The position numbers and the translations under genes are program-made. A stretch of DNA of 64,000 nucleotides from an uncultured Porphyromonadaceae bacterium (GTDB lineage: Bacteria; Bacteroidota; Bacteroidia; Bacteroidales; Muribaculaceae), in contig CAMWSM010000001.1 of NCBI GenBank assembly GCA_947176915.1, positions 79,880 to 143,879 on the forward strand, in the 5' to 3' direction. Each line of letters starts with the position of its first letter. Position 1 is the stretch's first letter. Below, piece by piece: positions 19,133 through 40,006 of the stretch. Under the pieces are notes generated by a model that saw only the letters and a program-made list of their open reading frames with translations, was not told the origin of the DNA and did not search any database.

Positions 19133-19309
19133 AAAAATAAGATGGTAAGATCAGAAAATAAGATGGTAAGGAAATAAGGGGGTAAGAAAACTCTCACCAT
19201 CTTATTTCCTTATTTTATTAACTCCCTATTTACTTAATTTCTTATTCTCTTAACCTCTTATTCCCTTAACTTCTTATTCTCTTAACTTCTTATTCCCTTA
19301 TTTGCTTTT

Positions 19310-21373: not shown

Positions 21374-21562
21374 AGTTGCGGAAAATCCGCCACTGCCTGT
21401 CATCCTTTTTTCTGCAAAGTTGCGAAAGTGCATCCGAAACTCTTTTGAAAGGCTAACTTTGCATCATCAAAATCGACAAACACCTCTCCCGAGAGGTAAA
21501 CGCTTTTGATCTTAAATCCTCAACTTTCAATTTTCAACTTTAAATTTTCAATTTTCAAAGAT

Positions 21563-22117
21563 ATGGCTATAAATCTCGAAAAAGGACAGCGTGTGGCTGT
21601 CGAACTTCCCAAGTTCACGATCGGACTTGGATGGGACGTGAACAGTTCTTCTACGGGCACTGACTTCGACCTTGACGCCTCTGCCTTCATCATGGGAGAG
21701 AACGGCAAGATTCTTGCAGACGAGTTCTTCGTTTTCTACAATAACCTGAAATCGCCTGACGGAGCCGTAGAGCATACCGGGGATAACCGCACAGGGGAAG
21801 GTGAAGGGGATGACGAAAGCATCCGCATCGATCTTTCAAAGATAGATCCTCGGGCTACTCAGATAACCTTCGTTGTAACAATTCATGAGGCAGATTCCCG
21901 CCGTCAGAATTTCGGTCAGGTAAGAAATGCTTTCATCCGCATCTACGACAGCGCTACGGGAGAGGAGATCATGCGCTATGATCTTGATGAGGATTTCTCA
22001 GTGGAGACAGCAGTGGAGTTCGGAAGGCTCTATAAGAGAAACGGACAGTGGAAGTTTGAGGCGATCGGCACCGGTCAGAAAGCGGGGTTGGCGCAATATT
22101 TGGAGAAGTATAATTGA
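21563..22117 (+). CDS. TerD family protein
   Basis: 'MAINLEKGQRVAVELPK...FDLDASAFIM...RQNFGQVRNAFIRIYDSATGEEIMRYDLDEDFSVETAVEFGRLY'. Confidence 0.93.
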   Translation: MAINLEKGQRVAVELPKFTIGLGWDVNSSSTGTDFDLDASAFIMGENGKILADEFFVFYNNLKSPDGAVEHTGDNRTGEGEGDDESIRIDLSKIDPRATQITFVVTIHEADSRRQNFGQVRNAFIRIYDSATGEEIMRYDLDEDFSVETAVEFGRLYKRNGQWKFEAIGTGQKAGLAQYLEKYN

Positions 22118-22280
22118 GGCGTTAGGCATTAGGCATTAGGCGTTAGGTGTTAGGCGTTAGGCATTAGGGACGAGGCGCGAGATGCTGACTCATACCATTA
22201 AAAATCAAATTTTACGGCTTTGGACCTTGCCTCGGACCTCAGACCTCGAGCCTAATGCCTAAAGCCTAAAGCCTAAAAAA
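22117..22280. repeat. Inverted TTAGGC/GCCTAA array
   Basis: Left arm '(g)gcgttaggcattaggcattaggcgttagg...', right arm '...cctaatgcctaaagcctaaagcctaaa'. Confidence 0.75.
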
Positions 22281-22306
22281 TTTTTTAAATTTCAATTTTA
22301 ATTATT

Positions 22307-22972
22307 ATGGCTATCAGACTTGAAAAAGGACAGAAGATAAATCTTGAGAAAAATAATGGCTCCAAACTCACTGAATTTTGCGTGGGCTGCAACTGGGGCG
22401 CAATAGTAACATCAGGGGGATTCCTCGGACTGGGTAAAAAGACTCAGGATGTTGACCTCGATTTGAGCTGCCTGATGATCGACGCTAACGGGAATATATG
22501 CGATCATATCTATTCACCCCTTTACCGTACAGATTTCCTCGGGCGATATGGAATGCCTCCCGGCAAAGTAGACTCCCTTGACGGAGCGATGCACCACAGC
22601 GGTGATGACCTCCAGGGGGATCAGGGGGGCGACGATGGTCTTGACAATGAAATCATCACTGTCAACCTGAATCGTGTGAGTCCGAACGTGAATCAGATTT
22701 TCTTCTTCCTGAACAACTGTGGCAAAGAGGATTTCTCCCAGATACCCTACGCTTCCATCAGAATGTATGAGGGGACTCCGTCAAGAGTAAAAGAGGTGTT
22801 CGCTTCCTACGATGTGGCAGCAGAGCCAAGGTATCGCGGGGCTACGGCACTTATAATGGGCAAGCTTTACCGCCGCAACGGGGAATGGAAATTCTCAGCC
22901 ATCGGCGATGCCTATCCCGACAAAAATATCTGTGAGACTATCCAACGGATAGCAACAAATTACGCAAAATAA
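22307..22972 (+). CDS. TerD family protein (TerZ-like)
   Basis: 'MAIRLEKGQKINLEKNNGSKLTEFCVGCNWG...DVDLDLSCLMIDANG...GKLYRRNGEWKFSAIGDAY'. Confidence 0.92.
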   Translation: MAIRLEKGQKINLEKNNGSKLTEFCVGCNWGAIVTSGGFLGLGKKTQDVDLDLSCLMIDANGNICDHIYSPLYRTDFLGRYGMPPGKVDSLDGAMHHSGDDLQGDQGGDDGLDNEIITVNLNRVSPNVNQIFFFLNNCGKEDFSQIPYASIRMYEGTPSRVKEVFASYDVAAEPRYRGATALIMGKLYRRNGEWKFSAIGDAYPDKNICETIQRIATNYAK

Positions 22973-22977
22973 AAATT

Positions 22978-23616
22978 ATGAGAAAACTACCGGTTTACAT
23001 TCTTCTCGACACCTCCGGCTCAATGTATGGTGAGCCTATCGAGGCAGTAAAGAACGGACTGCAGGTGCTCACAAGCACTCTGACCTCCGATCCATACGCT
23101 CTTGAAACCGCCTATCTGAGTGTCATCACTTTTGACAGCACAGCCAAACAGGCTGTGCCCCTCACGGAGATAGCCGCTTTCCAACCACCGCAGCTTAAGG
23201 CTTCAGGATGCACCGCTCTTGGGGAGGCGCTTCAACTCGTGGCTCAATGTGCTGACCAGGAAGTGATCAAAACCACTCCTGAAAAGAAAGGAGACTGGAA
23301 GCCGCTCGTCTTCATCATGACAGACGGAGAGCCTACGGATGATATCCGCAAAGGTCTTGAGGATTTCAAGAGCAGGAAGTGGGGAATGGTAGTGGCTTGC
23401 GCAGCGGGAGCAGGAGCCAACACCAATACGCTGAAGCAGATCACTGAGAACGTGGTGTCGCTCGACACAGCCGACAGCGCCACAATCCGCCAATTCTTCA
23501 AATGGGTGTCAGCTTCCGTTCAGGCTAACAGTGTGAAGGTTGATGAAGGGAAAGGGGAAATCAACTCCATAGGAGAGCTTCCGCCTCCGCCGCCTGAGGT
23601 AAATATCGTGATTTAA
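22978..23616 (+). CDS. VWA domain protein (TerY-like)
   Basis: MIDAS 'LLDTSGSMYGEPIEAVKNGLQ', 'FIMTDGEPTDD'. Confidence 0.9.
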   Translation: MRKLPVYILLDTSGSMYGEPIEAVKNGLQVLTSTLTSDPYALETAYLSVITFDSTAKQAVPLTEIAAFQPPQLKASGCTALGEALQLVAQCADQEVIKTTPEKKGDWKPLVFIMTDGEPTDDIRKGLEDFKSRKWGMVVACAAGAGANTNTLKQITENVVSLDTADSATIRQFFKWVSASVQANSVKVDEGKGEINSIGELPPPPPEVNIVI

Positions 23617-23630
23617 TTTATCGGAATTTA

Positions 23631-23727
23631 GAAAGAGGATATATTGAAGTTAGCTTTTTAGGGCGCAGCGGGATTGCGGAGCAATCCCCTCCCAGGCATT
23701 ACTCTTAATTTTGATATATCCTCTTTC
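23631..23727. repeat. REP-like element GGGATTGCGGAGCAATCCC nested in a perfect 14-bp outer inverted repeat
   Basis: GAAAGAGGATATAT (23631-23644) / ATATATCCTCTTTC (23714-23727); core at ~23670-23688. Confidence 0.8.
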
Positions 23728-23785
23728 TTCCTCTTATTTCCTTATTTTCTTATTTCCTTATTTTATAATTCTCTATCCTTCTAAG

Positions 23786-24421
23786 ATGCGTATTCTTCCC
23801 GTATATCTTCTTATCGACACTTCCGGCTCCATGCATGGCGAGCCGATAGAATCCGTCAAGGTTGGCTTGGAGGCGCTTGTCAGCAGCCTGCGTCAAGAGC
23901 CGGCTGCCTTGGAATCGGTTGCTCTCAGCATCATCACTTTCGATAAGGATGTGAAGCAAATTCTCCCCCTCACTCCGCTTGACGAACTCCAGCTTCCGGA
24001 AATCACTACTCCTGAAAGCGGACCCACTCACACCGGACTTGCCTTGCAACTGTTGTGCGAAAGAGTTGACAAGGAGGTGAAAAAGGGCACTGCCGAGACA
24101 AAAGGGGATTGGAAACCACTGCTCTTTATAATGACCGATGGAAAGCCCTCCGACAGCAAACTATATAAGGATATGATCGAGGAGGTAAAGAAACGTCATT
24201 TCGGAAATATAGTGGCGTGTGCAGCCGGACCGTCAGCCAAAGCGGAGGAATTGCTGAAACTTACGGATAAGGTGGTGTCGTTAGACACGCTTGACAGCAC
24301 AGCCTTCAAGAAATTCTTCAAATGGGTTTCCGACTCTATCAATATCGGCAGTCAGAGTGTAGGCGCCACAGACGACATCGCCCTACCACCTCCACCCCCG
24401 GAAGTGAACCTCATCCTCTAA
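23786..24421 (+). CDS. VWA domain protein (TerY-like)
   Basis: 'MRILPVYLLIDTSGSMHGEPIESVKVGLEALVSSL...FIMTDGKPSDS'. Confidence 0.9.
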   Translation: MRILPVYLLIDTSGSMHGEPIESVKVGLEALVSSLRQEPAALESVALSIITFDKDVKQILPLTPLDELQLPEITTPESGPTHTGLALQLLCERVDKEVKKGTAETKGDWKPLLFIMTDGKPSDSKLYKDMIEEVKKRHFGNIVACAAGPSAKAEELLKLTDKVVSLDTLDSTAFKKFFKWVSDSINIGSQSVGATDDIALPPPPPEVNLIL

Positions 24422-24459
24422 AACCTAAAGCCTAAAGACTAACGTCTAAAACCTAAATT

Positions 24460-25071
24460 ATGAATGTAAAACTAAAAGGAGCTTACGTAAAACATCTGGA
24501 GGTGGAGCTTTTCCCCGGAGAGGAGTTTTATGCTGAAAAGGGTTCGCTGATATACATTGAAGAGGGAATCGACATGACGAGTGAGTTTTCCGGAAATTCA
24601 CTCGGACAGATCATCGGCTCCAAGCTATCGGGAGAGAATCTCCTTATCGTGCATTACCGCAATTTCACATCGCAGCCGCGCCGCCTCGTGCTCGGGTCGC
24701 GAGGGGGAATGATTCATTTCAAACTCACCAACTCGGAAATTATCTGCAATCGCGGAGCATACGTGGCATCAAGCAAGAAAGTGGATCTCTCGATGAAACT
24801 TTCCCTTTCCGGATTTATAGGTGGGATAGGAGGAATGTTGCAAAGAGTGAGCGGAGATGCGACTGTATTTCTTGAGACCATAGGAGATCCTATTATCGTA
24901 GAGTTAGGACCGGGACAAGGCATTCAGATTGACGAACAGCATTTCCTTGCCCTGGAAGGAATACCTGAAAACAGGATCACACCTCAGTTTTCCACCCGCA
25001 ACCTCTTCGGAGGGGAGGGACTGAGGATGCTCAGCGTGCGCGGACCCGGCAAAGTCTACCTCAACCCCTAA
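24460..25071 (+). CDS. AIM24/TIGR00266 family protein
   Basis: 'LEVELFPGEEFYAEKGSLIYIEEGIDM...GLRMLSVRGPGKVYLNP'. Confidence 0.85.
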   Translation: MNVKLKGAYVKHLEVELFPGEEFYAEKGSLIYIEEGIDMTSEFSGNSLGQIIGSKLSGENLLIVHYRNFTSQPRRLVLGSRGGMIHFKLTNSEIICNRGAYVASSKKVDLSMKLSLSGFIGGIGGMLQRVSGDATVFLETIGDPIIVELGPGQGIQIDEQHFLALEGIPENRITPQFSTRNLFGGEGLRMLSVRGPGKVYLNP

Positions 25072-30770: not shown

Positions 30771-33431
30771 ATGGCAGAACAAAAACATTTCACCGGTCTT
30801 ACGGATGCCGAAGTGCTGCAAAGTCGCGAGCAGCATGGAGTCAACATACTGACTCCGGCAGAGAAAGACCCACTATGGAAGCGGTTTTTAGAGAAATTCA
30901 GCGACCCGCTGATCATTATTCTTCTTATTGCCGGCGCTCTCTCCATCGGCATTTCATGTTATGAATACTGGGGTCTGGGTCATGGAGCCGGAGTCTTCTT
31001 CGAGCCTATCGGAATATTCATCGCCATACTTCTTGCCACGGGTCTGGCTTTTATCTTCGAACTTAAGGCTGATAAGGAATTTGCTCTCCTTAATCAGGTG
31101 AATGATGACGAGCCGGTGCAGGTGATCCGTAACGGCAACGTAACTCAGGTGCCCCGCAAGGATATTGTCGTGGGTGATATCGTAATCCTCAACACAGGCG
31201 AGGAAGTGCCGGCTGACGGAGAACTCCTGGAGGCTGTCTCACTGAATATCGACGAATCCACCCTCACGGGCGAGCCGATGTGTCATAAGACCACCGACCC
31301 CGAGCAGTTCAACCCGGAGGATACATTCCCCTCCAACCATGCCATGCGCGGAACAAAGGTGATGGAAGGACACGGAACAATGAAGGTGTTCGCCGTGGGA
31401 GATCAGACGGAGAACGGAAAGGTGTTTGAAGCTGCACAGATCGACGACAGCGTCAAGACCCCCCTTAATGAGCAACTTGACGGACTCGGAGACCTCATCA
31501 CAAAGATTTCATACGCTTTCGCGGCACTCATCGTGGTGGGGCGTATAATAATGTTCTTCTTCAATTATCCCTTTGAATGGGTCAGCTTCATCGCTTATCT
31601 CCTTCAGACGCTGATGATTGCCGTTACGTTGGTGGTTGTGGCAGTGCCGGAAGGTCTTCCGATGGCTGTTACCCTCTCGCTTGCCTACTCCATGCGCCGT
31701 ATGCTCAAGACCAACAATCTTGTGCGCAAGATGCATGCCTGCGAGACTATGGGAGCCACTACGGTTATCTGCACTGACAAGACAGGCACGCTCACGCAGA
31801 ATCAGATGCAGATCTATAAAACTAACTTCTTCGGCAATCCTTCCGACGTGGTGCTATATGAGGGAATCGCCGTGAACTCTACGGCTCAGCTTGATCTTTC
31901 AGGTGAAAAGCCTCAGGTGCTCGGAAATCCCACTGAGGGTGCGCTTATTCTCTGGCTGAAGGAGCGCGGAGTGGATTATGCGAAGCTTCGCGAAACTGCG
32001 CAACGGGTTGAAGAACTCCCCTTCACTACAGAGAGAAAATATATGGCTACTGTAGTGAAATCCTCAACCGGAAAAAAGATACTTTACGTAAAGGGCGCTC
32101 CCGAGATTGTATTCGGGATGTGCAAGGACACTGCCGGAGTAACCAAGCAGGAGATTGACGCTCAGCTTCTCGAATATCAGAACATGGCTATGCGCACCTT
32201 GGGCTTCGCATATCAGGAGATTGAGGATGGAGATGCCACAATCAGAGATAATAAGGTAGCCGCCGAGAAACTCACATTCCTCGGAATTGTCGCTATCTCC
32301 GATCCTGTCCGCGCTGATGTGCCTGCAGCGGTAAGAGAGGTTATGGATGCAGGCATTAAAGTCAAGATTGTAACAGGCGACACTCCCGGCACAGCCAAGG
32401 AGATCGGACGTCAGGTAGGACTCTGGAATGATTCCTTCGACGGCGACGAGAATATAATCACGGGAGTTGAATTTGCAGCGCTTTCAGATGATGAGCTCCG
32501 CAAGCGCGTGGGCAATATCAAGATTATTGCCCGTGCCCGCCCGATGGATAAGAAGCGTCTCGTGGAGTCTCTTCAAGCCAATAATGAAGTCGTGGCTGTA
32601 ACCGGCGACGGCACCAATGATGCCCCTGCCCTAAAAGCCGCTCATGTCGGTCTGTCGATGGGCGACGGCACTTCCGTGGCTAAGGAGGCTTCCGACATCA
32701 CTATTGTTGACAATTCCTTCTCTTCAATCGGACGCGCAGTGATGTGGGGCCGTTCCCTTTTCCAGAATATCCAGCGTTTCATCCTTTTCCAGATGACTGT
32801 CAACGTGGCAGCCTGCTTCATAGTACTTGCAGGAGCTTTCATGGGTACGGAGTCACCACTTACCGTAACACAGATGCTTTGGGTGAACCTCATAATGGAC
32901 ACATTCGCGGCTATGGCTCTTGCTTCGCTGCCTCCGTCGGAGAGCGTTATGAAAGACAAACCGCGCAGCCGCGAGGCATTCATCATCAACCGCCCGATGT
33001 GGCAGTCGATTGTAGGGGTAGGCGGAATCTTCTTCCTGCTTCTTCTCGGCATCCTCTATATCTTCGAGCATTACAGCGTGGAATCAATGACTCAGCTTTT
33101 CACGTTTGCGGAGCAGACAGTGAAAGAGGGACAGCCGGCATTGACGGCTTACGAGCTTTCAATGTTCTTCACCATCTTCGTATTCCTTCAGTTCTGGAAC
33201 ATGTTTAATGCGCGTGCATTCGAGACAGGGAAGTCAGCCTTCCATTTCAAGGGAGCGAGCGGTTTTGTGATGATAGCACTTATAATCGTCATCGGTCAGA
33301 TCTTTATCGTCTCTGTGGGCGGAGAGTTCTTCAACGTTACTCCCCTGCGCATTCTTGACTGGGTGATCATCATCGGCTCGACATCACTCGTGCTTTGGAT
33401 CGGTGAGTTTATCCGGCTTTTCAAGAAATAA
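30771..33431 (+). CDS. P-type calcium-transporting ATPase (PMCA/SERCA-like)
   Basis: 'VICTDKTGTLTQNQM', 'NIDESTLTGEP', 'AVTGDGTNDAPALKAAHVGLSMG', 'VVVAVPEGLPMAVTLSLAYSM'. Confidence 0.93.
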   Translation: MAEQKHFTGLTDAEVLQSREQHGVNILTPAEKDPLWKRFLEKFSDPLIIILLIAGALSIGISCYEYWGLGHGAGVFFEPIGIFIAILLATGLAFIFELKADKEFALLNQVNDDEPVQVIRNGNVTQVPRKDIVVGDIVILNTGEEVPADGELLEAVSLNIDESTLTGEPMCHKTTDPEQFNPEDTFPSNHAMRGTKVMEGHGTMKVFAVGDQTENGKVFEAAQIDDSVKTPLNEQLDGLGDLITKISYAFAALIVVGRIIMFFFNYPFEWVSFIAYLLQTLMIAVTLVVVAVPEGLPMAVTLSLAYSMRRMLKTNNLVRKMHACETMGATTVICTDKTGTLTQNQMQIYKTNFFGNPSDVVLYEGIAVNSTAQLDLSGEKPQVLGNPTEGALILWLKERGVDYAKLRETAQRVEELPFTTERKYMATVVKSSTGKKILYVKGAPEIVFGMCKDTAGVTKQEIDAQLLEYQNMAMRTLGFAYQEIEDGDATIRDNKVAAEKLTFLGIVAISDPVRADVPAAVREVMDAGIKVKIVTGDTPGTAKEIGRQVGLWNDSFDGDENIITGVEFAALSDDELRKRVGNIKIIARARPMDKKRLVESLQANNEVVAVTGDGTNDAPALKAAHVGLSMGDGTSVAKEASDITIVDNSFSSIGRAVMWGRSLFQNIQRFILFQMTVNVAACFIVLAGAFMGTESPLTVTQMLWVNLIMDTFAAMALASLPPSESVMKDKPRSREAFIINRPMWQSIVGVGGIFFLLLLGILYIFEHYSVESMTQLFTFAEQTVKEGQPALTAYELSMFFTIFVFLQFWNMFNARAFETGKSAFHFKGASGFVMIALIIVIGQIFIVSVGGEFFNVTPLRILDWVIIIGSTSLVLWIGEFIRLFKK

Positions 33432-33452
33432 TCCGATATATCAGCTATACAG

Positions 33453-33486
33453 AGACAGACGGCGTGGACCTCCACGCCGTCTGTCT
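33453..33486. terminator. Strong 16-bp hairpin between convergent genes
   Basis: AGACAGACGGCGTGGA-cc-TCCACGCCGTCTGTCT. Confidence 0.65.
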
Positions 33487-33496
33487 TACATGATAT

Positions 33497-34579
33497 TTAC
33501 TTAATAACGAATATGACATCGGAGAGAGCTTTATAAGCTTTCTTTTTATATTCAAAATGAATTTCTTTAAGATTGTGATGTGAGAAATTTTTAATAAAAT
33601 CATTAATTTTTGGTTCAATTAATGAAAACGCTCGTTTCAGTTTCCAGGATTGGTCAAAATTTATAGAATCTGCTAAAATGAGATATATTCTATTTTCTGC
33701 TCCAAAGCGCATTTCTCCTTGATTTTCATATAACCATCTGATTAATTCGTAAGGATTGCTTTGCGATTCCTCAATAATTTTACGTCGCACACTATCTAAC
33801 TCATCGATAATGGCAGTATTATTTATTTCTTTTAGTTTTTCGGTTAAGATATATGCTTGTTGATTAGGGGAGATACTGGTGGATTTAATTCCTATTTCTT
33901 TACATCTTGTTTTAAGCCATGATAAAGAACCCTTCCCTAATATAGATTTAACCTTTTGTTCCATAAACTGATTAGGGAAAAATGTTACTTTTAGATCAAA
34001 AGGATAATTTTGTATAAAAAAGTCAACACTCTTAATTTCCCCTACAGCAGAGATTACGTCAGGGTTACGTTTGAACAAAGATTCTATAATGAAAGAAGTC
34101 CAATTATTATACCAGCTATTTTGCACATAATCCCATGCATTTGCCCCAATTTCAGGTTGTTTACTTTGCAATTCATTATAATTGCTTATTACTTTTACAT
34201 ACCGACTTATGAAATATTTGTCAAGAGAATTGTTTTGATCGCCTCCCCATGAATAATATTTAATCTTATATAAGTCTTCTTTCAATTGCTCTACATCCAC
34301 TCCCATTTGCGCGTACCACTCATGATTCATACACTGTAGGAAGGCATCAAGCATAGACATAGCATCCGGACGTTTTTTTAAAATATCATATAACTCAACA
34401 TTCCGTGCAGAAACTTTAGTGGTCTTGAGGATTATATTATTTTCTTCAATAAACTGTTGCAATTGCTTTCCCCGACAAATAGCGCGCACTTTTAGCCACA
34501 ATAGACCATAAAAATTTTCATTAAAAGCATTCAAATCTTGATTTCGGAAAGCATAATCCCATTTTTCAAATTCAGTCAT
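33497..34579 (-). CDS. Putative type II restriction endonuclease (PD-(D/E)XK-like)
   Basis: 'VGEIKSVDFFIQNYPFDLKVTFFP' matches a D-Xn-D-X-K motif; directly follows a DNA methyltransferase gene (about 2-bp gap between the ORFs). Confidence 0.65.
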   Translation of the reverse strand: MTEFEKWDYAFRNQDLNAFNENFYGLLWLKVRAICRGKQLQQFIEENNIILKTTKVSARNVELYDILKKRPDAMSMLDAFLQCMNHEWYAQMGVDVEQLKEDLYKIKYYSWGGDQNNSLDKYFISRYVKVISNYNELQSKQPEIGANAWDYVQNSWYNNWTSFIIESLFKRNPDVISAVGEIKSVDFFIQNYPFDLKVTFFPNQFMEQKVKSILGKGSLSWLKTRCKEIGIKSTSISPNQQAYILTEKLKEINNTAIIDELDSVRRKIIEESQSNPYELIRWLYENQGEMRFGAENRIYLILADSINFDQSWKLKRAFSLIEPKINDFIKNFSHHNLKEIHFEYKKKAYKALSDVIFVIK

Positions 34580-34586
34580 AATCATA

Positions 34587-35666
34587 TTATGGTTTACAAA
34601 TTATTAAAATTTCACTACTGCCGGCTACACTTCCTTTTCCACCTCTACCGAATTGATAAATTTTTCGTTTCACATCGACATTTCTATAGGGGCTTATTAA
34701 TTCAACGAGTGTATCTATAGATGGATAACTCCTATCATTATAACTGATTAACCAGTAAGGGATATTTTCAGAAAGTTTAAATAAACGTTTAAAACTATCG
34801 ATGATTTCCCTTTTTGTCTCAAAACCACTATCTTTCTTGGGGCTATATCTTTTAGTTCCATTTACAAATTCTTTATCTTTCCAATAATTTGTATATGTTT
34901 CTAACAGATGATAGAAGCCTTGGTAATCCGCATGACTATCACAATAGGGAGGATCAAAATATGCCACATCTGCATCGGATATAGAAGGAAGCAAGTCAAG
35001 GATGTTCTCATTGTATGCTATACAGTCGGTTCCATTATCAAATACGGCATTATTATACTCAATAACCAAATCTAAAAAAATATCTTTGATCGGTCGGATA
35101 AGGCTACGGTTACGTTTCACTCTTTCCGGATTAGATGCATACACTAAAGCCTGGGTATGGGCGAAATGCCCCATTGTAACTTTACGTGTCATGGCTCTAT
35201 TAATAACGGAGAATGCTAAAGCTCTTTTATATTCATTTTCAAGAATATCAACATTGCTCCTAAAAGCGTCTAAAAATTTGGTCTCCTCCCTGACAAAAAA
35301 TAAATCGGTGAAAAGACGTTCCATCAAATTAAATTTTTCAGGATCAGAGTTAGGAGAGAAAAGAATATCAATATCGTCCGGAGTCAGAATTTCATTCTTA
35401 TTTTCAATCAACGCTTTCCCGATTTTGCTATTGAAGGATAAAAAATCATTAGAAATAACAGCTTTCCCCATCTTCTTGCATAAGAATCCAATTGATTGTG
35501 AACCGCTGAAGGCATCTAAGATCACATTTGAATCTTCAGGGATATGTTGGGCAATCCATTCACTATGAATATATTTAGCTCCCAAATATTGTGGTTTTGG
35601 AAACTGTATATCCATAAATTTGTAATCTTCAAATAACGATGGTTGAAGTGCAATATTATTCCTCAT
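34587..35666 (-). CDS. D12-class/Dam-like adenine-specific DNA methyltransferase
   Basis: 'YLGAKYIHSEWI...ILDAFSGSQSIGFLCKKMGK...VAYFDPPYCDSHADYQGFYHLLETY'. Confidence 0.88.
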   Translation of the reverse strand: MRNNIALQPSLFEDYKFMDIQFPKPQYLGAKYIHSEWIAQHIPEDSNVILDAFSGSQSIGFLCKKMGKAVISNDFLSFNSKIGKALIENKNEILTPDDIDILFSPNSDPEKFNLMERLFTDLFFVREETKFLDAFRSNVDILENEYKRALAFSVINRAMTRKVTMGHFAHTQALVYASNPERVKRNRSLIRPIKDIFLDLVIEYNNAVFDNGTDCIAYNENILDLLPSISDADVAYFDPPYCDSHADYQGFYHLLETYTNYWKDKEFVNGTKRYSPKKDSGFETKREIIDSFKRLFKLSENIPYWLISYNDRSYPSIDTLVELISPYRNVDVKRKIYQFGRGGKGSVAGSSEILIICKP

Positions 35667-35772
35667 ACAACAAAGTTAACCATAATAGATGAGATAAACA
35701 AATGGGGAACCCATTCTAATGAAAATTGATTAATCTCTCAGTGTTTTTAATGTTTTGGTTTTATGCGCTTCT

Positions 35773-37113
35773 TCAGTCAGAAGAGGCGATCTTGAGGATT
35801 TCAGGCAGCCAGCCTGCCATGGGGATAGGGAGATGAATTACTTGAGTGGACTCATCTTTTGAACTGATAGAGAATCCCTGGGCAGAAAGAATTATTGCGG
35901 TAGAAGGTTTATATTTGCCTATATAGACTGAAAGACTCTTAGAAGAGGTATTGACTGATGACTTGACTTCAATCGGGATGATCTCAAGATCATTCTGAAT
36001 TATATAATCTACCTCTGCCGTACCATTTGACACCCAGTAGCGAGGCATCTGCTCTATTGCCGGCAATAGGTTTTCCAATACGGTATTCTCCGTCAAAGCC
36101 CCTTTGAATTCAACGAAACTTGCACTCTCAGATGTAAATATCGAAGGGGGAATATTTGCAAGTTCTCTCAATAAGCCCACATCAAGCAAATAAATCTTGA
36201 AAGCGCCTAAGTCGTCGAATGCACTCAAAGGCAGCCCCGGTTTTGAAAGACAATAGACTTGATAAATAAGTCCTGCCTCCTTTAACCAAGTCAAGGCATC
36301 TTCATATTCTCTTGCCCTGGCTCCGTTTTTCACTACTTTATAAACAAATTTTCTGTTTTCCTTAGAAAGTTGGGATGGAAGGGATTGCCATACGGCAGCA
36401 ATCTTCGGGAATATAGTTTGCGGCGCATGTTTAGAGAAATCAAAATAATAAGAGGTGAGAATCTCACGTTGTTCAGCGATTACCCTTTCCAGTCCCGAAT
36501 GCTCTATCGAACTTACCACCGCCCGGGGCATTCCACCACATACCTGATACTGCCGATATGCCTCCCACATTTTGCTTTCTATGATTGCCGGCAAACCACA
36601 TATTTCTGATAAATTATTGATATAATCATAGACTTCAGTCTTTACAGCCCGTAAATATTCGCGAAAAGATATAGGATACATTCGGATGAAATCAACTTTT
36701 CCCACAGGAAACCCCTTATGTCTATGGATAGCTACACCCAGTAAAGATCCTGCTGCCATTATATGATAGTCGGGAGCTTCCTCATAGAAGTATTTGAGAC
36801 TATTCAAGGCTTCGGGACATTCTTGAATTTCATCAAATATAATCAGAGTTTCTTTTGGAATAATCGGGGCAGAAGAATATAATCTGAGAATCTCAAGAAG
36901 TCTTTCAGGCTCTTTGGTACGTGTAAACTCAGACTTTAATTCTTCATTAGAGTCAAAGTTAAAATAGACATAAGAAGAATAATATTTCTGACCAAATTTT
37001 TTCATGACCCAAGTCTTGCCGATTTGTCTCGCTCCTTGAATCAATAATGGACGCCTATAATCTGAATTTTTCCATTCCAGCAATTTTGTAAATATATCTC
37101 TTTCAATTTCCAT
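35773..37113 (-). CDS. ATP-binding protein, AAA_14 + DUF4143 family
   Basis: 'RRPLLIQGARQIGKTWVMKKFGQKYY...LIIFDEIQECPEALNSLKYF...GSLLGVAIHRHKGFPVGKVDFIRMYPISFREYL'; start MEIERDIF preferred (ORF to 37125). Confidence 0.9.
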   Translation of the reverse strand: MEIERDIFTKLLEWKNSDYRRPLLIQGARQIGKTWVMKKFGQKYYSSYVYFNFDSNEELKSEFTRTKEPERLLEILRLYSSAPIIPKETLIIFDEIQECPEALNSLKYFYEEAPDYHIMAAGSLLGVAIHRHKGFPVGKVDFIRMYPISFREYLRAVKTEVYDYINNLSEICGLPAIIESKMWEAYRQYQVCGGMPRAVVSSIEHSGLERVIAEQREILTSYYFDFSKHAPQTIFPKIAAVWQSLPSQLSKENRKFVYKVVKNGARAREYEDALTWLKEAGLIYQVYCLSKPGLPLSAFDDLGAFKIYLLDVGLLRELANIPPSIFTSESASFVEFKGALTENTVLENLLPAIEQMPRYWVSNGTAEVDYIIQNDLEIIPIEVKSSVNTSSKSLSVYIGKYKPSTAIILSAQGFSISSKDESTQVIHLPIPMAGWLPEILKIASSD

Positions 37114-37138
37114 AAGGTAAACCATTCTGTTAAGACTC

Positions 37139-37146
37139 CAAAATTA
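37139..37146 (-). promoter_or_regulatory. -7 element TAATTTTG for the DUF4143 gene
   Basis: Minus strand TAATTTTG just upstream of the start codon. Confidence 0.4.
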
Positions 37147-37180
37147 AGCATTATTTTCCTTACATGAAAGCGCAGGTTAG

Positions 37181-37239
37181 AAAAATGTGGAAATTTTCAC
37201 ATTTTTCCATATAGAAATGTGTGGATTTTCACATTTTTC
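37181..37239. repeat. Tandem imperfect palindromes (AAAAATGTG...CACATTTTT and AAATGTG...CACATTT)
   Basis: Two palindromes with centres at 37193.5 and 37225.5 (32 bp apart). Confidence 0.8.
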
Positions 37240-37449
37240 CAACTTACTCTATTACTATCATGCAAAACCGGAGTTCCATTATATCCTTGAACGTACTTGT
37301 CCTTATTCATAACATTTTGATTGAGACTGCAAAGGTAATTTCAACTCGTGTGCTCCAAAATCGCTTATAACAAACTGAATTACAAAATTTCCAAAAAATT
37401 TTTATGATTTATTAGAGGACACTAATGATTTTTTATTAATTTTGCAACA

Positions 37450-37655
37450 CAATCGGAACTCTATAATCCGAATGTAAAATATCTAGCCTAATCGTCGTCG
37501 AACTACCACCTTGATTTATGATAAGGCTAATCACAATATTTTCCCAATGGGCGAAGTATATCTACGCGCATAACGTAGAATCGTGCCCATGGGAAAATTG
37601 GCTGTGGTAGGCCACGACGACGTTGGGCTTCGGTTCTACGTTTTTCGTATAACTC
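37450..37655 (+). ncRNA. Candidate structured RNA or single-strand-folding DNA element (multi-helix)
   Basis: Nested pairings: 37493-37500/37615-37622 (CGTCGTCG/CGACGACG), CTACCAC/GTGGTAG, 37538-37552/37585-37598, TCTACG/CGTAGA; preceded by TAATTTTG at 37437. Confidence 0.5.
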
Positions 37656-37703
37656 GTTGCCATTTTACTAGATAATTTCTAAATTAACTCTACAACTTGT
37701 AAA

Positions 37704-38393
37704 ATGGAAACTGTTTTAGCAATCATTTCACTTTTATCACTTCTTGCTTTTATAGTAGGAATGGTAAAACCATCTTTTGTAAAATGTAAATCAAGAAGGA
37801 TTGTGGCGCTTATCTACCTTGGAATTTTCCTTGTAAGTGCTATTATTGGAGGTTCCCTAATAGAACCTTCCCCTTCCAATCAATCGGAGAACCTAACAGG
37901 GATTGAAAGCGATACCACAAAAAATGAGAGAACGAAAACCCAAAATTCCACCTTCATTTCGGAAACCGAAGACGACTCCAATACTAAAGAAAAAAAGGAA
38001 ATCAACAAAATTCCTGATTTATTAGCAGGCAGTGAGTTCAAAGTAAAACATGGAGATGGGGAAATAGAATTCAACTTAGAGGATATTAAGATTAACCGTA
38101 TACCCAATGACGGAAGAAATCTGGTAATCACTGTGAAGATAAAGAACAAATCCAATAGCAAATTTTTCATAAGTGATTCGGGATGGAAACTCTTAGATTC
38201 AGAGAATGTAGAGGTAGAAGAATCCGGTATATATGAACCAGTTTTCAGTGACTTTGCGCCCGGCACATTCTTCTTCACCATAGTTGAGCCGAATGTAGGA
38301 AAAAAGGAAATAGTGGGATATTCAATTAAAAATGAACCCTACTATCTAACCATAGACGGAAAAATTGTAGGAAGAATTAATAACACCAAATAA
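37704..38393 (+). CDS. Hypothetical membrane protein with extracytoplasmic DUF4352-like domain
   Basis: Two N-terminal hydrophobic segments, then 'FNLEDIKINRIPNDGRNLVITVKIKNKSNSKFFISDSGWKLLDSEN'. Confidence 0.55.
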   Translation: METVLAIISLLSLLAFIVGMVKPSFVKCKSRRIVALIYLGIFLVSAIIGGSLIEPSPSNQSENLTGIESDTTKNERTKTQNSTFISETEDDSNTKEKKEINKIPDLLAGSEFKVKHGDGEIEFNLEDIKINRIPNDGRNLVITVKIKNKSNSKFFISDSGWKLLDSENVEVEESGIYEPVFSDFAPGTFFFTIVEPNVGKKEIVGYSIKNEPYYLTIDGKIVGRINNTK

Positions 38394-38443
38394 TATATCC
38401 CCCTTATAGTCAGCAGGGATTGTTTCCTACATCAATTTAATAT

Positions 38444-38500
38444 AAAAAGTGTCCTAAAATTTAGGACACTTTTTATATTTTTGTCCTAAAATTTAGGACA
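38444..38500. repeat. Tandem palindromes GTGTCCTAAA-A-TTTAGGACAC and TGTCCTAAA-A-TTTAGGACA
   Basis: Centres at 38459 and 38491 (32 bp apart); the first extends to 15-bp arms. Confidence 0.9.
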
Positions 38501-38507
38501 CTTTTAT

Positions 38508-38515
38508 TATCTTTG
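38508..38515 (+). promoter_or_regulatory. -7 element TATCTTTG for the DUF4143 gene
   Basis: TAnnTTTG match 18 bp upstream of ATG 38533; possible -33 TTTG at 38480-38483 touching palindrome 2. Confidence 0.5.
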
Positions 38516-38532
38516 CAAAAAATTATAATTGG

Positions 38533-39849
38533 ATGGATAAAAAATACATCAAAAGCCAAATTGCAATGCGTCAGGCGGAATTTCCCACCGACCTTATCCC
38601 ACGTGAAACCCCGTTGCCAATTGGTTTGGGAAAAATCATCACCATACCGGGAGTAAGAAGATGCGGGAAATCATCTAAAATGGAGATTGTGGCAAACACC
38701 CTTCTAAATCAGGGGATAGACAGAAGGAAATTGCTGTGGGTAGGATTTGACGACGAACGCCTTGTGAAGAGCAGTTCGGAAGAACTCCATACTATCATAG
38801 AGGCGTATCAGGAAATGTACCCGGAAATAGAGATGCGGGAAGTGATTATGTTTTTTGATGAAATTCAGTTGATAGAGGGTTGGGAATATTTCATAATGCG
38901 ACTATATAAACACTATTCCAGGAATATTTATATTAGCGGGAGCAACGCAAGCATGCTTAGCACTGAACTTAAATCTGCATTAAGGGGATGGCCACTTGAA
39001 GAACGTACGATGCCCTTGTCTTTTTCAGAATATTGCCGATTTATGGAAATCGACACCAAAAGTTGGCTTGAAAAAGACTTGGTCAGGGTGCGGAATGCTT
39101 TCTATCATTATAACGACTACGGTGGTTTTCCTGAAGTCGCCTTGATTGAAAATCCTCTATTAGTAAACAAGATACTGCAAGGATACTTTGACACGATGCT
39201 TTTAAAGGATTTAGCAGAACATTACTCTATATCCAATCTGGAAGTGTTAAGATACTTTATTAAAAGGATTATGGCAAATCTTACAAAACCTACCTCAATA
39301 CGTTCAATTCATAACGATATAAAGTCACGCAATCTTAAAGTGAGTAAAGACAATCTTTATGAATGGGCGGCGCATGCCTGTGATATATTCCTTTTTGTCG
39401 GAATTTCCAATTATAGCAGATCTCTTCAGAAGACTGAATCTTCCCTTCCCAAATACTATTGCATAGACAATGGTTTGCTTAGCGCTGTTCTCCTTCCTCA
39501 AAGTGATGACTATGGAAAAAAATTAGAAAATACAATTTTTCTGCAACTATACCGTAATACCGGACCTCTCACAAAGATATTCTATTATCAGGGAAAGGGC
39601 GAATGTGATTTTGTTGTGCAGCAGTCAACTAAAATCAGTCAACTCATCCAAGTGACTTGGAGCATAGCCGATGAAAACACCCGAAAACGAGAAATTGCAG
39701 GATTAATTGAGGCATCCCAAAAGACGGGATGCAACGATTTATTGATAATAACATCGGAAGAAGAGGAAACAATTGTCCTTCCAGATGCCGGCATTATCAA
39801 AGTGATGCCGGCATGGAAATGGTTGCTGCACGAGTCTGAAGGAAAGTGA
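38533..39849 (+). CDS. ATP-binding protein, AAA_14 + DUF4143 family
   Basis: 'IITIPGVRRCGKSSKMEIV...VIMFFDEIQLIEGWEYFIMRLY...ISGSNASMLSTELKSALRGWPLEERTMPLSFSEYC'. Confidence 0.9.
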   Translation: MDKKYIKSQIAMRQAEFPTDLIPRETPLPIGLGKIITIPGVRRCGKSSKMEIVANTLLNQGIDRRKLLWVGFDDERLVKSSSEELHTIIEAYQEMYPEIEMREVIMFFDEIQLIEGWEYFIMRLYKHYSRNIYISGSNASMLSTELKSALRGWPLEERTMPLSFSEYCRFMEIDTKSWLEKDLVRVRNAFYHYNDYGGFPEVALIENPLLVNKILQGYFDTMLLKDLAEHYSISNLEVLRYFIKRIMANLTKPTSIRSIHNDIKSRNLKVSKDNLYEWAAHACDIFLFVGISNYSRSLQKTESSLPKYYCIDNGLLSAVLLPQSDDYGKKLENTIFLQLYRNTGPLTKIFYYQGKGECDFVVQQSTKISQLIQVTWSIADENTRKREIAGLIEASQKTGCNDLLIITSEEEETIVLPDAGIIKVMPAWKWLLHESEGK

Positions 39850-40006
39850 AATTATTAAACCATTAGGTTAAAAACGAGCCTATAATTTCGTAATTTAAGA
39901 CAAATTGCCTACCTTTGCGGTGTATTTCTTCAATCGGACGGTCATCACAGCCGGCAATGAGGTGGAAATACGCCTCTTTTTTGATACTAATCAACTATAT
40001 CATAGA

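Follow-up and report, generated by a model that had tools for sequence, protein, structure and literature searches.

Paired Palindromes Upstream of Two ATPase Genes

Why should two ATPase genes of one genome each be preceded by a pair of palindromes with identical spacing and unrelated sequences, and what would read these sites? The question is raised by the region 37181-38500 of the window (the whole stretch of 64,000 nucleotides that was analysed), where an earlier note had described tandem palindrome pairs with 32-bp spacing at two DUF4143 ATPase genes, here called P1 and P2. Their positions and spacing were confirmed on the sequence. The P1 gene is located on the minus strand (35773-37113), and its gene-proximal site is the palindrome AAATGTGGAAATTTTCACATTT at 37183-37204 (minus strand, centre 37193.5, extended symmetry 37180-37207). 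The distal site, AAATGTGTGGATTTTCACATTT, lies at 37215-37236 on the same strand (centre 37225.5) and is imperfect at its middle. The P2 gene is located on the plus strand (38533-39849) and is preceded by site 1, GTGTCCTAAAATTTAGGACAC, at 38449-38469 (plus strand, centre 38459), and by site 2, TGTCCTAAAATTTAGGACA, at 38482-38500 (plus strand, centre 38491). Both P2 palindromes of the earlier note are thus present, the second being symmetric over 19 bp and not over 21.

Direct reading of the sequence gave a centre-to-centre spacing of exactly 32 bp in both pairs. Dinucleotide shuffling of the whole window gave expected numbers of palindrome matches (≤3 mismatches) of 0.01 and 0.00 for the two motifs, and a chance origin of both pairs was therefore excluded. 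Candidate Bacteroidota -7 boxes, assigned by consensus match only, were found at 37139-37146 for P1 (TAATTTTG, minus strand, between the array and the start codon) and at 38508-38515 for P2 (TATCTTTG, plus strand). The latter box had been placed 3' of palindrome 2 by the earlier note, which holds with its position corrected as given here; site 2 lies directly 5' of it. A CRISPR reading found no cas match, by Pfam or PADLOC, among the five proteins around the site. A phage-derived target was rejected, as neither the P1 nor the P2 motif was found in IMG/VR contigs.

The surroundings of the two genes were also inspected. A D12-class N6-adenine methyltransferase is encoded next to P1 (34587-35666, minus strand), and a 362-aa gene without family match directly follows the methyltransferase gene (33497-34585, minus strand); together (33497-35666) they are a possible type II restriction-modification pair. 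The GC content at 32001-40000 was 0.38-0.40, compared to about 0.42-0.52 in the rest of the window, which suggests horizontally acquired DNA. Elsewhere in the window, low-complexity tandem repeats with short units (CCTAAAGCCTAA, TTTCAACTTT, and CTTATTCCCTTA) lie in front of each of several neighbouring genes (21562-25068) and of one at 19309, all from the control set used below.

P1 and P2 Belong to the Candidate Defence Family PDC-S01

Both proteins consist of an AAA_14 domain, a winged helix, and a DUF4143 domain of the PD-(D/E)XK kind. P1 has 446 aa, whose start was set at MEIERD (37113) to agree with the orthologues, in a reading frame that is open to 37125, and P2 has 438 aa, with the winged helix at about residues 236-310. 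The Pfam matches to AAA_14 (E 2.5e-30 for P1 and 2.1e-25 for P2) and DUF4143 (E 1.2e-32 and 1.4e-17, respectively) were above the cut-off, and P1 had in addition a weak match to ATPase_2. In PADLOC, both proteins matched PDC-S01 over nearly their full length (P1 to PDLC04786 with E 4.4e-163, P2 to PDLC04787 with E 2.9e-100). According to its description, this family is a single-gene candidate defence system in which an ATPase is joined to a PD-(D/E)XK domain; it is the fourth most common defence system across prokaryotes and has been detected in tens of thousands of copies among bacteria and archaea; experimental validation is pending for most PDC-type candidates, and PDC-S01 itself is unvalidated (PMC12988326). 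The earlier statement that AAA_14/DUF4143 proteins have no established function should thus be refined, since a phage-defence candidate is not wholly uncharted. The catalytic D-E-K motif is intact in P1 (D373/E386/K388 in the numbering of the 450-aa reading frame), and P2 carries a degenerate D-Q-T without the lysine, which places it in a minority of PDC-S01.

AlphaFold (AF2) models were obtained with a pLDDT of 89.8 and a pTM of 0.89 for P2 and a pLDDT of 85.7 for P1. In both models the AAA+ domain is followed by the winged helix, with its helices and wing strands, and then by the PD-(D/E)XK fold; confidence in the P1 model was low at 251-264, inside the winged-helix region. When the models were compared with the PDB by Foldseek, the first match of P2 was the Cdc6/Orc1 heterodimer on origin DNA (2qby, E 4.5e-7), which ranked third for P1 (E 8e-7) behind the archaeal ATPases 2qen and 2fna. 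The lower-ranked matches comprised ORC subunits, RuvB, and STAND defence proteins, the STAND-like ones including Avs3, Avs4, Avs5, and NLR proteins. Since the TM-scores of these matches were low (0.2-0.5), they support a kinship of architecture, not of function, for the modelled folds. A phmmer search of the P1 and P2 sequences against the PDB gave no match.

Helically Phased Arrays Are Common Upstream of Family Members

The genome of the window has 12 DUF4143 genes, and visual inspection showed most of them with their own array or palindrome; the number of PDC-S01 copies per genome ranged from 1 to 31. For a survey of the family, 195 distinct genes with 120 bp or more of sequence upstream were taken from Bacteroidales and a few other groups, and they fell into 99 clusters at 60% identity. 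The genomes were mostly MAGs, and start codons were inferred from homologues. An array was called when the direct-repeat score within 200 bp upstream exceeded that of 99% of dinucleotide shuffles. By this measure, significant tandem repeats were found in 58 of the 99 clusters, and when palindromes were counted along with direct repeats, 79 of the 99 passed the 99% shuffle level. Among the roughly 40% of clusters without a significant direct array, some had a single palindrome, some had nothing, and some are possibly embedded in operons. Upstream of the DUF4143 gene of L001, a large inverted repeat with arms of about 27 bp (TTTATGTAAATTTGCAATT and AATTGCAAATTTACATAAA) contains a -7-like box, TAAATTTG, and several members of the L001 clade have palindromes in place of tandem repeats.

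The best offsets were 23 bp (11 clusters), 32 bp (16), and 33 bp (19), with a few at 21, 22, 31, 34, and 66 bp. The spacings of 22-23 and 32-33 bp correspond to two and three turns of B-DNA. Phased spacing (21-23 or 31-34 bp) was found in 51 of 99 clusters, compared to 6 of 298 control genes taken from the window and from twenty 8-20 kb stretches of related genomes (Fisher p=9e-30), and several of the six control repeats were microsatellites. The offsets 22, 23, 32, and 33 accounted for 48 of the 58 array clusters (binomial p=2e-45). After clustering at 40% identity, 20 of 32 clusters were phased, and the family-wide sample alone gave the same picture. The arrays had two to five copies of a palindromic or direct repeat; units spaced by 32 bp were more often palindromic, and those spaced by 23 or 33 bp were mostly direct. 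Paired sites with conserved spacing are thus found upstream of homologues, a point on which the earlier note had asked for a check, but the spacing is not always 32 bp and the repeats are often direct instead of palindromic.

The position of the arrays relative to the promoter was also recorded. In 83% of the array-bearing family genes, a TAnnTTTG -7-like box was found no more than 80 bp from the start, and 37 of the 46 non-redundant arrays with such a consensus-matched box reached the -33/-7 region. The catalytic D-E-K was present in 76 of the 99 clusters, and about 20 had no lysine. Arrays were found in both kinds, and their retention in members without the lysine indicates that the array is independent of nuclease activity. 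No earlier description of arrays upstream of DUF4143/PDC-S01 genes was found in the searchable library, which leaves most subscription papers and preprints outside its scope; no paper there joined DUF4143 with palindromes, and none of the papers naming the Pfam or COG identifiers was on function by its title.

A further 21 loci from plasmid and phage collections, two of them Bacteroides plasmids, were examined as a small, non-random sample. Clear arrays of 32 or 33 bp (some seen as 66) were found for members from Fusobacterium animalis, Collinsella, Agathobacter, Glaesserella, and Acinetobacter towneri, as well as on a Bacteroides plasmid and two unverified phage contigs. The member on an archaeal plasmid (Methanomethylovorans) had a borderline array, and two others from these collections had a spacing of about 40 bp. 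Among the prophage contigs, L325 and L327/L328 had 33-bp arrays and L324 was borderline. Homologues from several phyla other than Bacteroidota are thus among those with arrays. In this sample of 21 loci the array was absent upstream of other members, such as those from Vibrio and Sulfurimonas and a Treponema copy in an hsdR-hsdM operon. In the latter, L276 (a Treponema saccharophilum plasmid), the PDC-S01 gene at 1381-2616 is flanked by hsdR and a DNA methyltransferase gene; its missing array is in line with an operon-embedded copy.

The Array Diverges With the Protein, and Tested Arrays Are Private Within the Genome

When 111 proteins were placed on a tree, spacing class tracked the clade: all members of a nine-member clade had 23 bp, a large clade had mostly 33 bp, and the P1 group had 32 bp. 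The tree required 14 changes of spacing class, compared to at least 22 in 200 shuffles. Array similarity was at background (7.0) for proteins of 20-30% identity and reached 13 at 60-70%, 25 at 70-80%, and 39 above 80% identity, while the DNA 5' of the arrays stayed at its background of 6.5-7.5 at all protein identities. These results indicate that gene and array move and diverge together, in surroundings that differ. When the protein was divided into domains, the identity of the winged helix was the best predictor of array similarity (coefficient 0.38, CI 0.13-0.62), and that of the nuclease domain had a negative coefficient; the regression was bootstrapped over genes, and the gene pairs are not phylogenetically independent. 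The co-variation of palindrome sequence with protein clade that the earlier note had asked about is therefore present, and is best with the winged helix. Within the P2 family, TGTCC..GGACA arrays are paired with the recognition region SRGLKVSKDxLYDWA and TTTCCGG..CGGAAA arrays with the recognition region SQGKRLDKNKLYELA. Upstream of P1-like members from several phyla (L045, L232, L262, L263, L280, L325, and L327), a half-site core AA(A/G)TGTG / CACA(C/T)TT recurs, which suggests that the addresses within this clade are variations on a shared core.

Pattern searches of the whole 2.99-Mb genome found the P2 palindrome (≤2 mismatches) only at its two sites and the P1 pattern (≤2 mismatches) at its two sites and at one isolated position with two mismatches on another contig. 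With one 33-bp and one 23-bp array added, four addresses were searched in the genome of the window, and each motif was private to its own gene, save for that single degenerate P1 match. The same palindromes are thus not scattered over the genome. Taken together, the conserved spacing, the co-divergence, and the privacy support the suggestion of the earlier note that each ATPase may be coupled to its own cognate site.

Some Arrays Persist Without an Intact Gene

The P2 palindrome (one mismatch) was found in 23 of 111 genomes of the genus, of which 6 had an intact P2-like gene, about 8 had gene remnants, and about 9 had no recognisable gene. In L285 and L287 an internal deletion has left the C-terminal 50 aa at about 80% identity, and L284, L293-L295, and L303 retain the array with remnants of the start codon. 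At L297 (1520-1780), a P2-like gene is interrupted just past its start by a small MITE-like insert with the inverted ends CAATGTCACTAAATTAAG and CTTAATTTAGTGACATT. Single copies or 33-bp-spaced pairs without any ATPase remnant were found in L283, L289-L292, L296, L299, L302, and L304, near position 1504 except for L291 (near 1067) and L302 (near 151). Gene decay with a surviving array probably explains most of the gene-less cases. The persistence of these arrays suggests that an array can outlive its gene, or perhaps serve something other than it.

Gene-less arrays would also be expected if a mobile element used the arrays for attachment or as targets, so that the gene inserts at or moves with the array and the gene-less copies are empty or vacated sites. 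The conserved array between unrelated 5' flanks and the low GC content of the region at 32-40 kb are compatible with this, and the gene-less locus of L289, L290, and L292 corresponds to the place where, in L300, an intact P2 gene lies between arrays. However, arrays are not generally present downstream, as terminal repeats would be: over 400 bp downstream of 55 genes, the median best match was 8 against a null of 7.75, with two outliers and, separately, L300. Moreover, eight of the gene-less arrays come with gene remnants, which fits gene decay, and no transposase or integrase adjoins the genes of the window. We therefore regard mobility of this kind as quite improbable.

A Proposed Self-Addressed ATPase Module

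The reading that we prefer, with a probability of roughly 70%, is that a PDC-S01 gene and its promoter array form one module, a DNA-reading AAA+ ATPase with a private address that would regulate its own promoter. As a comparison of the sequences shows, the arrays lie just upstream of the start codon at spacings of 23, 32, or 33 bp in most array-bearing members, the spacing class goes with the clade, the array co-diverges with the protein and most closely with its winged helix, and the tested addresses are private. We infer that the array is probably recognised by the ATPase itself. The winged helix of each subunit, or of a dimer at palindromic sites, would read one repeat, and the spacing of two or three turns would set successive ATPase domains on the same face of the DNA, where they could make contact and assemble cooperatively. 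Since the array borders on the -33/-7 region or overlaps it, this assembly would regulate its own gene, most simply by repression (the sign is assumed), and would hold the ATPase at a low, inactive level. If PDC-S01 is a defence system, a phage-induced disturbance of the assembly could lead to higher expression or release the ATPase/nuclease. With private addresses, the 10-30 paralogues of a genome could be regulated independently. Autoregulation fits better than cleavage, because the site is protein-specific, private, promoter-overlapping, and kept in nuclease-dead members.

The array might be more than an operator. It could act as a sensor on which the ATPase is kept inactive as an oligomer until infection frees an active nuclease/NTPase, the control of expression being a by-product. 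The helical phasing, the AAA+/STAND-like fold matches, the membership in PDC-S01, and the large share of clusters with an intact nuclease motif (76/99) are in its favour, but simple autoregulation already explains the promoter overlap, and we consider the sensor somewhat unlikely. A wider proposal, which we offer tentatively, is an ORC-like, DNA-addressed form of candidate immunity, in which each ATPase would assemble as a phased oligomer, its private promoter array would serve as the lock or sensor, and dozens of co-resident copies would be kept orthogonal, in the manner of immunity groups, by winged helices and arrays that diversify together and rapidly.

The likeness to initiators could also mean that the array is an ORC/initiator-, origin-, or iteron-like assembly platform for replication, plasmid or phage maintenance, or handcuffing, with promoter control secondary. 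Cdc6/Orc1 on origin DNA is the top fold match of P2 and is also matched by P1, family members occur on plasmids and phage contigs, and haloarchaeal orc/cdc6 paralogues adjoin diverse cognate ORBs that depend specifically on the adjacent gene (PMC3528665, PMC3936714). The low TM-scores count against this platform, as do the 1 to 31 copies per genome, the standalone genes within ordinary chromosomes, the many arrays with only two sites, and their overlap with promoters, so that we hold it to be improbable. A replication origin as such was rejected on the copy number and the absence of a skew switch in the window. We consider it very improbable that the arrays serve an unrelated host regulator as operators, or that they are terminators or RNA hairpins. 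Downstream of the preceding gene, P2 site 1 does score as a terminator-like hairpin. But a host regulator would be expected to have one shared motif, whereas the motif of each gene is private and co-diverges with the ATPase. The hairpin or terminator reading fails for the many arrays that are direct repeats and cannot form hairpins, and an RNA element was rejected because an Rfam search gave only sub-threshold matches, none near the curated threshold.

Comparison With Known Systems and Implications

The archaeal Orc1/Cdc6 proteins share with the self-addressed ATPase module proposed here an AAA+ domain with a winged helix, a gene beside its own sequence-specific repeats, and paralogues with distinct repeats (PMC3528665, PMC3936714), and an orc/cdc6 gene with its adjacent, paralogue-specific ORBs is the closest working analogue. 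The P1/P2 family differs in several respects: its proteins have a PD-(D/E)XK domain at the C-terminus, the promoter is covered by two to five repeats in even phase, a genome can have as many as about 30 copies, and nothing points to origin activity; by Pfam, both proteins are AAA_14/DUF4143 and not Orc1/Cdc6. The best fold matches of P1 were archaeal Walker ATPases of the ATPase_2 kind (2qen, PABY2304, and 2fna, SSO1545), a family to which P1 also has a weak Pfam match. To our knowledge, these two proteins have no known function and no array has been reported for them.

Proteins encoded beside their own specific operators are familiar from toxin-antitoxin systems, the controller proteins of restriction-modification systems, phage repressors, and iteron Reps, and in autoregulated selfish or defence modules co-resident paralogues diversify in specificity. 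PDC-S01 differs from these in being a single-gene ATPase whose putative operators keep a spacing of two or three helical turns throughout a very large family. Our searches returned no report that PDC-S01 has a cognate array upstream, falls into helical classes of spacing, or recognises specific DNA sequences.

The gene-specific site beside most of the copies tested is a first handle on the mechanism of PDC-S01. The sites are short and predictable; binding, oligomerisation, and induction are testable with a 100-bp probe for any array-bearing member. The pairs of winged helix and array also constitute a large natural data set for decoding the DNA specificity of winged helices, from which orthogonal pairs of regulator and operator may be drawn for use in gut Bacteroidota.
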